Under the pieces are notes generated by a model. The model saw only the letters and a list, made by a program, of their open reading frames with translations. It did not search any database and had not been told where the DNA came from. A stretch of 53,141 nt of DNA from Ignavibacteria bacterium. Its GTDB lineage: Bacteria > Bacteroidota > Ignavibacteria > UBA10030 > SZUA-254. The stretch spans positions 1-53,141 of the forward strand of contig JACOSX010000092.1 in NCBI GenBank assembly GCA_016178625.1, read 5' to 3'. The translations under genes and the position numbers were made by a program. This document shows, piece by piece, positions 1,858 to 5,542 of this stretch. How positions within the stretch are numbered: position 1 is the stretch's first letter; every line of letters begins with the position of its first letter.

Positions 1858-3033
1858 TTACCTCTTTCTCAGAGACTTCGTGTGCTCGGTTTGGGGAAGT
1901 AATTTGCCATCGATGGTTGCGAACAGTAATTCGTAATCAATCGGCTTTGTTATGAATTCATCTACGCCAAGCCTTTTACCGATCAGCTGGGTTGTCCGGT
2001 CGAGTGAAGATGTCATAAAAATAAAGGGGATATGCGTTGTCGCTGGCGTAGTACGGACAAATTCGTAGAGGTCGAAGCCTGCCGTCATGCCATCCAGCAT
2101 AACTTCAGATATCACGACATCAGTGGTCACAGTCTTCAGGATCGAGAGCGCTTCGTCGAACGATTGGGCTGCGATGACCGCGTAAAAGTGTGAGCGGAAT
2201 TTTGCAGCCATTTCCAACAGGGCATTTTCATCTTCCTCCACCAAAAGGATTGTGCCCCTGATTTTGTTCTTCCGGACCTCCCGCAGGAGGGACATCTCAA
2301 TGAAAGAATGGTCCATCCGAGAGATCTTATATTTTGCGCGCAGATGGTCGATGGCTTCGGCAGTGAACGCGGAAAGTCCGCCAGTGTTCCAGATCTCGTA
2401 GAGTGCCTCTTTGTACAAGGAATTCTTTACCTCGCGTTCGAGTGCTAAGCGCCGCGCATCCTGGACCTTGAGTGCTCCTTGTATCTTCGTTAGTACGCTG
2501 AGTTGCGCTTCCGAAGGTTTGCCGTTACGCCATGATTCTTTAAGGACGGAGGAGAACTTGAATTCTTGCTCACTATCAATGTCTGCAGTTCCCGCCCTGT
2601 GTTGCAGGTCGGTCAATCGCTGGAGGAGAGCTTTCGCATACATATTCTGTGAATCAAGGGACAGCACGCGGTTCGCTTGCTCGGACGCCTTCTTGAAGTG
2701 ACCATCTTCGAGCATCTTCTGCGCAGCGACGAGGATGGAGCTGATCTGAGTATTCTTCCGTTGAAGGTAAATATCTTTATATTTCCGGATCTCGGTCTGG
2801 ATGTCTCGACTCAAACCAACCCGCTGAGAGAGTTGTTTAACCAGGAACTGTATTCGATCCTGATACGATAGCGCGACGCCGTGCTCAGGATGAATGGCAA
2901 AAACCTTCTGTAACATTTCATCAGCGGCGAGATAACGACCTTCGCGGATGAATTTGTCAGCCTGACGAAGCCAATCATCTATCTGAGCTTTCTGGATACC
3001 GTCGAACGATGGTGTTGTCTTTGTCCCTTCGAT
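1858..3033 (-). CDS. Helical-repeat protein with a C-terminal receiver domain lacking the phosphoacceptor Asp
   Basis: The N-terminal half is helical, TPR-like repeats (ADKFIREGRYLAADEMLQKV, then AQKMLEDGHFKKASEQANRV). The C-terminal ~130 residues form a CheY-like receiver (TILLVEEDENALLEM ... FIFMTSS ... DEFITKPIDYE). Counting from the first ATG (2914-2916), the acidic pair is E227/E228, the switch Thr T302 and the lysine K324. The phosphoacceptor position in VVISEVMLDG is E271, not Asp. The first repeat begins upstream of that ATG: the open frame reaches back to an in-frame TAG at 3037-3039. No ATG, GTG or TTG lies between them; an ATC at 3031-3033 follows an AAGGA-type ribosome site by about 8 bases. 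I annotate from that ATC, with low confidence in the exact start. The DNA-binding or output role is unknown. Confidence 0.7.
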   Translation of the reverse strand: MEGTKTTPSFDGIQKAQIDDWLRQADKFIREGRYLAADEMLQKVFAIHPEHGVALSYQDRIQFLVKQLSQRVGLSRDIQTEIRKYKDIYLQRKNTQISSILVAAQKMLEDGHFKKASEQANRVLSLDSQNMYAKALLQRLTDLQHRAGTADIDSEQEFKFSSVLKESWRNGKPSEAQLSVLTKIQGALKVQDARRLALEREVKNSLYKEALYEIWNTGGLSAFTAEAIDHLRAKYKISRMDHSFIEMSLLREVRKNKIRGTILLVEEDENALLEMAAKFRSHFYAVIAAQSFDEALSILKTVTTDVVISEVMLDGMTAGFDLYEFVRTTPATTHIPFIFMTSSLDRTTQLIGKRLGVDEFITKPIDYELLFATIDGKLLPQTEHTKSLRKR

Positions 3034-3126: not shown

Positions 3127-3543
3127 TTAGTTATTCTTTGCGCCTTGGGCGATCCATTTCTTGAGTATTGATAACGTGTCTTCAGGGAACGGTGTCTTGC
3201 GCTTGTATGGCATCGGGTCGCCGAATGGTGGCTCCGAGCCAAGCTTTTTCACCATAAAACTCGAATCGGGTTGTCCCGGTGCGATCGGACAACCGTGTTT
3301 ACCGCCTTTCATCATGTCGTCATAGTTGTCGAGGTACAATTGGCTTGGGTTCATCTGATCTTCCGTGTGGCACGGCAGACAATATTTCTTGAAAATCGGA
3401 TAGACATCTTTCTTATACGAGAATGTTGCTGTGTGAGATTTGGTCTTCTCCTTGGGGTCTTTCTTCCCTTTCTGTTGCTGGAATGCAGTGACCAGAACGA
3501 GGAGGCAGAGGAGAAGCACGAGATTGATTATAGATTTTGCCAT
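3127..3543 (-). CDS. Small secreted c-type cytochrome (planctomycete-cytochrome-like)
   Basis: This is a 138-aa protein with an N-terminal signal peptide (INLVLLLCLLVLVTA, residues ~5-20) followed by a charged linker. A single heme-binding motif CLPCH lies around residue 55. The downstream sequence (LYLDNYDDMMKGG, IAPGQPDSSFMVKKL, FGDPMPYKR, LKKWIAQGAKNN) follows the pattern of the PSCyt1-like monoheme domain: CxxCH, an APGxPDSS loop, a distal Met in DPMP and a closing W-I-x-x-GA helix. ATG 3541-3543 is chosen because it starts the signal peptide; longer in-frame starts would overlap the neighbouring gene. It is the last gene of a minus-strand group with two lipoproteins and a heme-bearing barrel, suggesting a shared envelope electron-transfer role (inference). 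Confidence 0.8.
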   Translation of the reverse strand: MAKSIINLVLLLCLLVLVTAFQQQKGKKDPKEKTKSHTATFSYKKDVYPIFKKYCLPCHTEDQMNPSQLYLDNYDDMMKGGKHGCPIAPGQPDSSFMVKKLGSEPPFGDPMPYKRKTPFPEDTLSILKKWIAQGAKNN

Positions 3544-3562
3544 AGGAAATTGTTGGAAATTA

Positions 3563-3913
3563 TTATGGATGAATGAATGATACTGTGACAACGATTGAAA
3601 CTGTGGCTGTATTTTGTGGCGTCGCATTGTCGCCCATCGTAACACTCGAACCGCCTGCTCCATTGCCGTGGATTGTCACAGTACTGCCATCGAGCGAGGC
3701 TGTTGCAACATTGACTTTTGGTTCGTGGACGATGATGTAGGTAGGTACACCGCCACTCAGAGATACTGTCGTATCCGTTCCTGCGACCATCGTGACGGCA
3801 TTAGGTGTGGCAAAGAGGTAGTTTGCAACGACAACCGGCGGATCGTCCTTCTTACAACTCACAAGTGTAACTGTAACGAAGCCAATCAGTGTAAAAAATG
3901 ATTTCAGTCCCAT
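3563..3913 (-). CDS. Ig-like lipoprotein (paralogue B)
   Basis: This 116-aa product has a lipoprotein signal ending TVTLVSC followed by KKDDPP. One beta-rich Ig/BIG2-like domain follows (FATPNAVTMVAGTDTTVSLSGG ... VATASLDGSTVTIHGNGAGG ... VTMGDNATPQNTATVSIVVTV). It is clearly homologous to the product of 5171-5542 across the whole domain. The start at ATG 3911-3913 puts the signal peptide at the N-terminus; a longer frame would run into the barrel gene. Only 4 bases separate the barrel stop from this start, so the two are probably cotranscribed. It likely sits on the periplasmic or outer face as a lipid-anchored accessory. No enzymatic residues are visible. Confidence 0.75.
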   Translation of the reverse strand: MGLKSFFTLIGFVTVTLVSCKKDDPPVVVANYLFATPNAVTMVAGTDTTVSLSGGVPTYIIVHEPKVNVATASLDGSTVTIHGNGAGGSSVTMGDNATPQNTATVSIVVTVSFIHP

Positions 3914-3917
3914 AACC

Positions 3918-5081
3918 TCAAAACCACAGATGCATTTGAACCAAGCCTTGGTCATTACTGATGCTCGGTGTTTCGATGTTGATGCGATATTGCGGTCGGA
4001 CCTCTACAAACGAGTAGGGGAAAACCTCAAACCCGAGCGTTACACGTTTGATGCTGTTTGTATTAGGGAACCCATCAGAGACAACCCAACTATTTCCGCG
4101 TCCCTGCAGTGGATCGAACATATCAAACTTTCCGATGAGCCATAAACCTTGCACCGCGCGATAATCGAGTTCGGCATAGGCTGCCATCGTATAGCCACAT
4201 GGACCTAGCGTTGGGACAAGGTGATTGTAATTCTTCGTCCAATCGATTTCACCGAGGAGTGTCAGATCATCAATGCCTATTCCGGCTGTGAATCCCCCCA
4301 TCGTAAATCCGTTAAAGCCATATCCTGAAGCACCGACTCGGTAATTGACAGAAGAAACTGTTCCCATGTATTCAACCCGAGCGACATACGCTTTCTGGTC
4401 TGAGAGATCAATCTTCTTGATATTGCCTGTTCCGTTGAAGAGTCCCGCTGTGATAAAAAGCCCACCGATATAACCACCCAGCTCCATGCCGACGTCTTTG
4501 TAGTTTGGCGTAAAGATCAAGCCCGGATTATAGCCCAAGCTTGGAATGAAACTGAGATCCCCTCCTCGTGTATAACCGGTATGGTCGTCGAGGCGCCAAC
4601 CGTAATTTGGCAAGAAGTCTCCCCCTTTGATATACCATCCACCTGGAAATACTTTGGCGATTGCAAACACCTCCGGTCCGCTGAAATAACCGTAGACGTT
4701 ATTGATGATGTCTTGTTTGAAGTAAAATGAAAACTTCTTGTTGAGAATGATCGAACCATAGATTGTGGTTGTCATCGCGTGGAATGATGTTGTCTTCGAG
4801 CCGTTGTCGAAGAGGAATTGCGAGCGGTAGTCTCCTCCGATCGAGATGTTCTCAGAAAGTTTTGGATCGAACGTGAGGTCGCTGTCTTTCAGCGCTTCGA
4901 GAGGAACTTTGTCGATGCTATAGCCAACGCCATACTCATTCCGCATCTGACCGCCGGTCGGATTGATATGGCACGAAGCACAACGCGTGCCTGACATGAG
5001 TGCAAATCTCGGGAGTGCATGCAAAACGGGTGTGACTAGAACCATGATCGTGCAGAGTACAACCAGTACGGATCCTCTCAT
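3918..5081 (-). CDS. Outer-membrane beta-barrel with N-terminal CxxCH heme motif
   Basis: The product is 387 aa. Residues 1-22 are a signal peptide, followed at once by FALMSGTRCASCHINPTGGQMRNEYG, given here only as landmarks: CASCH is a c-type heme site around residues 34-38. The remainder is a chain of alternating amphipathic strands rich in Gly, Tyr and Phe (GGDYRSQFLF, FYFKQDIINNVYGYF, VGASGYGFNGF) that ends in MHLWF, with a terminal Phe as in outer-membrane barrels. I infer a porin-like protein carrying one heme near the periplasmic mouth. ATG 5079-5081 follows the ribosome site AAAGGA at good spacing. It lies between two paralogous lipoprotein genes and near a monoheme cytochrome gene, so an electron-conduit or redox-sensing barrel is plausible but unproven. 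It lacks the multiheme partners of MtrCAB-type systems. Confidence 0.75.
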   Translation of the reverse strand: MRGSVLVVLCTIMVLVTPVLHALPRFALMSGTRCASCHINPTGGQMRNEYGVGYSIDKVPLEALKDSDLTFDPKLSENISIGGDYRSQFLFDNGSKTTSFHAMTTTIYGSIILNKKFSFYFKQDIINNVYGYFSGPEVFAIAKVFPGGWYIKGGDFLPNYGWRLDDHTGYTRGGDLSFIPSLGYNPGLIFTPNYKDVGMELGGYIGGLFITAGLFNGTGNIKKIDLSDQKAYVARVEYMGTVSSVNYRVGASGYGFNGFTMGGFTAGIGIDDLTLLGEIDWTKNYNHLVPTLGPCGYTMAAYAELDYRAVQGLWLIGKFDMFDPLQGRGNSWVVSDGFPNTNSIKRVTLGFEVFPYSFVEVRPQYRINIETPSISNDQGLVQMHLWF

Positions 5082-5170
5082 ATCCAGTCCTTTCAACAGT
5101 TCGATGGTGTGTGTTCCAGTAAGGCTGATTGTGATTTGATGAATGTAACGAATCAAGAGATTTTTTGCAA

Positions 5171-5542
5171 CTATGGTTGAGTGAATAGGATCGCGACCGC
5201 CGACGTTGCGACGGTGATTCCTATGGTGACAGTCTTCTGTGGAGTGCTGCTGTCGCCGACGCGAACGGAGGTCGAGCCTACGTTCACACCATGGATCGAG
5301 ACGCTCGTATCGTTGAGCGATGCCGTAGCGATCGATGAGGTAGGTTGGGCGATGATGGACTCAGGGCGTGTTCCGCCACTGATGGAAACTGTGGCGTTCT
5401 GTCCAGGCAGCATCCGAACATTGGCGGGAGTTGCTGTCAGACCTCCGGACGAGGAAGTCGAGGGTTCTTCGGTGCCTTGCTTACAACCTGCCAGCAGAAA
5501 GATGGGAAGAAGAACAAGTGCAGCCATTTGGTTTGTGCTCAT
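5171..5542 (-). CDS. Ig-like lipoprotein (paralogue A)
   Basis: This 123-aa lipoprotein has the lipobox LLAGC around residue 20, then a Ser/Thr-rich linker. One Ig-like domain follows (LTATPANVRMLPGQNATVSISGG, split here: ATPANVRMLPGQ and TVSISGG; then IATASLNDTSVSIHGVNVG; RVGDSSTPQKTVTIGITV). The same order of phrases appears in the lipoprotein at 3563-3913, so the two are paralogues bracketing the barrel gene. ATG 5540-5542 is preceded by AAAGGTGA at a suitable distance. It is 89 bases upstream of the barrel start in the same direction. Role unknown; a barrel-associated surface or periplasmic lipoprotein is the simplest guess. Confidence 0.75.
   Translation of the reverse strand: MSTNQMAALVLLPIFLLAGCKQGTEEPSTSSSGGLTATPANVRMLPGQNATVSISGGTRPESIIAQPTSSIATASLNDTSVSIHGVNVGSTSVRVGDSSTPQKTVTIGITVATSAVAILFTQP

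Follow-up and report, generated by a model that had tools for sequence, protein, structure and literature searches.

A Cyc2-like fused cytochrome-porin of Ignavibacteria, probably representing a distinct branch of the haem-porins

In a 53,141-nucleotide stretch of Ignavibacteria DNA (hereafter, the window) we found a gene predicted to encode a single c-type haem motif fused to an outer-membrane barrel. By architecture and descent, sequence comparisons indicate that this protein is Cyc2-like, and it lies outside the published Cyc2 definition, so that we do not file it as Cyc2. Because the barrel represents a branch of the Cyc2 haem-porin family, it probably passes electrons between the cell exterior and the respiratory chain. 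We put at roughly 0.68 the probability that, within the Cyc2-like superfamily, it belongs to a distinct branch centred on Ignavibacteria and has this role in electron exchange.

Gene cluster, haem motif and barrel

An earlier note on this DNA had described a barrel, two lipoproteins and a CLPCH cytochrome at 3127-5542. All four genes are there, on the minus strand, preceded by a fifth:

7084-5573, minus strand: GH5-like protein with a type IX secretion tail, 5' of lipoprotein 1
5171..5542, minus strand: Ig-like lipoprotein 1, lipobox LLAGC, paralogue of lipoprotein 2
3918..5081, minus strand: predicted fused monohaem cytochrome-porin (Cyc2-like, NPTGG type), 387 aa, with signal peptide, ALPRFALMSGTRCASCHINPTGGQMR and a barrel of the Porin_O_P kind
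4968..5018, minus strand: predicted haem-binding segment of the barrel protein, residues 22-38, ALPRFALMSGTRCASCH, directly after the signal peptide, with invariant columns
3563..3913, minus strand: Ig-like lipoprotein 2, lipobox LVSC followed by KKDD (AlphaFold and Foldseek)
3127..3543, minus strand: exported monohaem c-type cytochrome (KKYCLPCH), 138 aa, PSCyt1 (Pfam PF07635)

The open reading frame of the barrel spans 412 aa from position 5156, and the refined start at 5081 gives 387 aa; the signal peptide was judged by eye, and the coordinates of the haem segment were converted from residues to bases by hand. The genes are transcribed in the order GH5-like, lipoprotein 1, barrel, lipoprotein 2 and cytochrome, with intergenic gaps of 30, 89, about 4-5 and 19 bases. 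A terminator-like hairpin, a type of match that is weak evidence, is present at 7173-7145, 5' of the GH5-like gene, and none was found on the same strand inside the run from this gene to the cytochrome. Given the short gaps and the hairpin only upstream, it is plausible that the five genes form a single transcription unit. The window also carries a TPR/response-regulator gene (1858-2916, minus strand) that adjoins the cluster in relatives too. Its frame stays open past the listed ATG to about 3037 with no ATG, GTG or TTG there, and therefore has either an unusual start or damage to the gene.

The CASCH motif stands right behind the signal peptide of the barrel protein, as first noted, and CXXCH, with its cysteines at C34 and C37, is invariant across 31 aligned relatives, which argues that the motif is not there by chance. 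P24, P41, G43, R47 and G51 likewise never vary in these 31 members, and in every one of them the haem motif is followed by a segment of the NP[TSA]G type. Viral contigs yielded no further barrel relatives. The CXXCH would carry a covalently bound haem, and the genome encodes cytochrome c maturation (Cytochrom_C_asm three times). M103, H167 and H384, each conserved in 30 of the 31 members, are candidate distal ligands judging from this conservation; provided that F387 points to the lipid, H384 on the last strand would be directed into the lumen, close to the periplasmic end.

Assignment to an outer-membrane barrel is by homology rather than from a structure model. One relative (L058) scores above the Pfam cut-off for Porin_4 and just below that for Porin_O_P, and the family profile picks up haem-less proteins elsewhere in the phylum, all three of those scanned being clear Porin_O_P. 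The phosphate-selective porins O and P are thus relatives of the window barrel that, unlike it, have no haem motif. About 16 amphipathic strand-like segments (a rough count) and a C-terminal aromatic residue give the protein a porin-like appearance, and its column-averaged hydrophobicity has a lag-2 autocorrelation of 0.12, against -0.007 +/- 0.055 in shuffles. An AlphaFold model built from three sequences only reached a pLDDT of 27. A profile search of solved structures returned no porin for the barrel family, which is uninformative because Cyc2 gives the same blank.

The two lipoproteins had been called paralogous and Ig-like. The paralogy stood, with phmmer relating them at 8e-19, and lipoprotein 2 is Ig-like: Foldseek matches its AlphaFold model, in which pLDDT exceeds 90 for most of the domain, to Ig-like domains of phage tail proteins and to a Big_2 domain. 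Lipoprotein 2 occupies the same place in three relatives of the family, and lipoprotein 1 was not found upstream of the barrel in any relative inspected. These lipoproteins are therefore optional and outside the conserved core: of the neighbourhood that the earlier note had grouped with the barrel, relatives that keep the barrel mostly keep the cytochrome but largely not the twin lipoproteins. In one locus (L041:8084-8878, the same as L033) an Ig lipoprotein runs in frame into the cytochrome, through either a gene fusion or a lost stop codon; a signal-peptide-like stretch lies inside, and we rejected this case as evidence.

Relation to Cyc2

The barrel had been thought to fit no known system, which proved wrong, since Cyc2 has exactly such a build: a monohaem cytochrome and a 16-stranded porin of the OprO/OprP type form one protein, with the signature AXPXFAR[Q/K][T/Y] before CXXCH and PXL after it (PMC8406198). 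The window barrel and Cyc2 (PMC8406198, PMC7029218) have in common a signal peptide, an N-terminal CXXCH with AXPXFA shortly before it, a fused porin-type barrel (predicted for the window protein), a length over 365 aa and, often, an adjacent small c-type cytochrome. Of the Cyc2 criteria, the window protein has the single CXXCH behind the signal peptide and, with 387 aa, exceeds the required minimum of 365 aa. Its pattern, AXPXFA...CXXCHxNPTGGxxR, departs from the rest: AXPXFA is there, but R[QK][TY] is missing, so that the full AXPXFAR[QK][TY] occurs in 0 of 31 members, as does PXL downstream of CXXCH, and NPTGGxxR stands behind the haem instead. The window type further differs from Cyc2 in forming a separate clade and in having two Ig-like lipoproteins close by. 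Because none of the 31 members has the exact motif or PXL, iron oxidation is not transferable from Cyc2 to this family.

Descent from a common ancestor is indicated by profile comparisons at two distances. As a distant yardstick we used Cyc2-like proteins from plasmids, found with a short probe built on the published motif. The N-terminal profile of the barrel family, minus the signal peptide, matched Cyc2 of proteobacterial plasmids with 97% probability (E 2e-10) and generic cytochromes weakly; a direct profile comparison of the barrel part with the proteobacterial Cyc2 barrels gave no detectable similarity, and no match to the window barrel was found on plasmids. On these plasmids, too, a small c-type cytochrome is mostly adjacent to the Cyc2 gene. 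Closer at hand, 25 proteins of the same class, most bearing the full Cyc2 motif, aligned with the barrel family in hhalign at 99.5% probability (E 7e-23, 351 columns); restricted to the barrel parts, the comparison gave E 4e-12 and 3e-7. Maximum-likelihood analysis of 62 sequences placed the window type on a long branch as a single clade (100/100 support), and the Cyc2-motif proteins of the class fall into two groups, both outside it.

The same genome also encodes a protein with the exact Cyc2 motif (ALPAFARKY...CSACH...PRL, 425 aa, with Tyr-Asn and no Gly after the [T/Y] position) on another contig (C73, L127:9789-11066). BLASTP aligns it with the window barrel over 385 columns at 23% identity (E 3e-7). 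It belongs to a minus-strand operon (L127:7187-11066) in which cyc2 is followed by genes for a monohaem cytochrome, a Rieske protein and the separate N- and C-parts of cytochrome b, the C-part bearing two CXXCH, and we regard this operon as a compact candidate for iron oxidation or electron uptake. Both proteins are of the haem-porin superfamily with a monohaem cytochrome downstream, and the C73 protein differs in ALPAFARKY, PRL, the Rieske/cytochrome b operon and its haem-motif class. Two reports mention Cyc2 hits or iron-oxidation genes in MAGs of Ignavibacteriaceae and Ignavibacteriales (PMC6344600, PMC8478452); these hits may be canonical proteins or members of the NPTGG clade. A limited literature search found no description of this clade or its partners.

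Distribution and redox neighbours

The barrel family is common in Ignavibacteria. Of 198 related genomes, 136 have a relative of the barrel; a wider sample, counted by hand, gave 56 of 73 genomes within the class and 9 of 223 beyond it. In eight of these nine outside genomes the match covers the barrel part only, and a few of the 56 within the class are partial too.

The cytochrome of the window scores 31.4 bits against PF07635 (PSCyt1; cut-off 22) and has one CLPCH. A cytochrome of this kind lies on the same strand, at most 1.4 kb downstream of the barrel, in 52 of the 72 barrel-bearing genomes of the order; in the other 20, none of the window kind was found beside it. Within the window's own family it is downstream in nine of ten barrel genomes and missing in all five genomes that have no barrel. 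Counted over 41 loci, an exported CXXCH protein is encoded by 22 of 123 near genes and by 1 of 180 far genes, a contrast whose p-value is not to be taken literally because the loci are related by kinship.

In deeper relatives the partner takes other forms. Beside the barrel stands a dihaem cytochrome that has a reaction-centre-cytochrome domain in family f12, a Temptin-like haem protein in f14, and a Rieske lipoprotein in f7, f8, f11, f18 and f19 as well as in one genome outside the class; among the barrel neighbours of f10, f15, f16 and f17 we found no redox gene. YceI-domain proteins lie near the haem-porin in two loci (L065:6248-6901 and L069:8495-9232), in one case also with a Rieske lipoprotein.

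Exported Temptin_C-family proteins with CXXCHxNPxGG and a type IX tail stand beside the haem-porin at L046:8203-8871, L049:8269-8931 and L045:8464-10374. The exported monohaem proteins of this kind in L046 and L049 carry a CXXCHxNPxGGxxRNxFG segment; they share the haem segment with the barrel and are its 5' neighbour in one clade, but they are not barrels and have a calcium-binding-type repeat and a type IX secretion tail. The Temptin_C Pfam family takes its name from an animal pheromone protein, and a literature search for haem in temptins returned nothing relevant.

The earlier note had stated that no multihaem partner is in reach, which holds for the window, where the cluster has a monohaem neighbour only and no multihaem cytochrome is encoded with the barrel, but not for the genome. 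Another contig (C16, L074:1288-7067, plus strand) encodes adjacent cytochromes with 23 and 31 CXXCH motifs, together with a possible barrel protein of 528 aa and, upstream, a membrane protein. MtrCAB, MtoAB and Pcc (OmbB-OmaB-OmcB) likewise combine an outer-membrane barrel with c-type haem for electron transfer, but in separate multihaem cytochromes, whereas in the window one haem is fused to the barrel; in Mtr and Mto the cytochrome sits inside a larger, 26-stranded barrel, unlike the window type.

Proposed function and alternatives

We propose that the single c-type haem would sit in an N-terminal plug which, by analogy, would lie at the periplasmic mouth of the approximately 16-stranded barrel. 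The pore would admit, from outside, a soluble redox partner of small size (Fe(II)/Fe(III) chelates, or reduced humics or quinones), and single electrons would pass via the barrel haem between this partner and the monohaem cytochrome of the periplasm, whose gene lies shortly downstream; this cytochrome in turn would join the barrel to the respiratory chain and its haem-copper oxidase (COX1 is encoded in this genome). The most likely function is the transfer of single electrons between the periplasm and a soluble redox partner outside the cell; that electrons cross the pore, and with which substrate and in which direction, is our inference. By analogy with Cyc2, the barrel would somewhat more probably oxidise an external donor than reduce an external acceptor. 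Among three earlier ideas, that of a minimal electron conduit is the best supported, by the homology to Cyc2-motif proteins and the exported one-electron carriers, and the idea of a haem-dependent sensor found nothing in its favour; the results weigh neither for nor against a redox-gated porin.

It is possible, though rather unlikely, that the barrel is a divergent Cyc2 iron oxidase, a narrower version of our proposal in which it would oxidise dissolved Fe(II) for energy and the electron would reach the oxidase by way of the cytochrome. The full-length homology to Cyc2-motif porins would fit, as would a genome that holds both a canonical-motif Cyc2 operon and an oxidase, and the Cyc2 hits reported for MAGs of Ignavibacteriales and Ignavibacteriaceae (PMC8478452, PMC6344600). 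The canonical Cyc2 already present nevertheless weighs on the other side, along with the missing defining motif and PXL and the presence of the barrel in 136 of 198 relatives, which suggests a general function. We also found no RuBisCO in this genome, and iron lithoautotrophy is therefore not indicated; with the wide presence in the class, this argues against iron lithoautotrophy as the sole purpose of the barrel.

A reversed flow, from the periplasmic cytochrome through the barrel haem to soluble extracellular humics or Fe(III) chelates, appears to us just as doubtful. Ignavibacteria have a record of multihaem cytochromes, porin-cytochrome complexes and extracellular reduction (PMC7399161), and very large multihaem cytochromes are encoded in this genome; yet the multihaem cluster on the other contig could already fill such a role, and the known proteins of the Cyc2 architecture are oxidases (PMC8406198). 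Still less probable is a structural, gating or sensing role for the haem in an ordinary Porin_O_P-type solute porin, or a CXXCH that binds no haem. Such a role would accord with the kinship of the barrel to haem-less porins and with the downstream half of the motif, NPxGGxxRN, being common to Temptin_C proteins, but the CXXCH is invariant, the maturation genes are present, and exported cytochromes or Rieske proteins adjoin the barrel in most clades.

Returning to the reading that we prefer, electron exchange by a Cyc2-like branch, we tentatively suggest one extension: the NPTGG haem-porins might be a separate, Ignavibacteria-wide class of one-haem electron gates that are not tuned to iron, whose partner has been exchanged repeatedly (cytochrome, dihaem cytochrome, Temptin-like haem protein, Rieske lipoprotein) and which work alongside canonical Cyc2 within one cell. 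Cyc2 serves as a genomic marker for iron oxidation, and a broad sister clade with the Cyc2 build and without its motif shows that the marker motif understates how common fused haem-porins are. A relaxed Cyc2 search could therefore score Ignavibacteria with NPTGG proteins as iron oxidisers without proof. With both types of haem-porin in one genome, the purpose of the motif becomes directly comparable.
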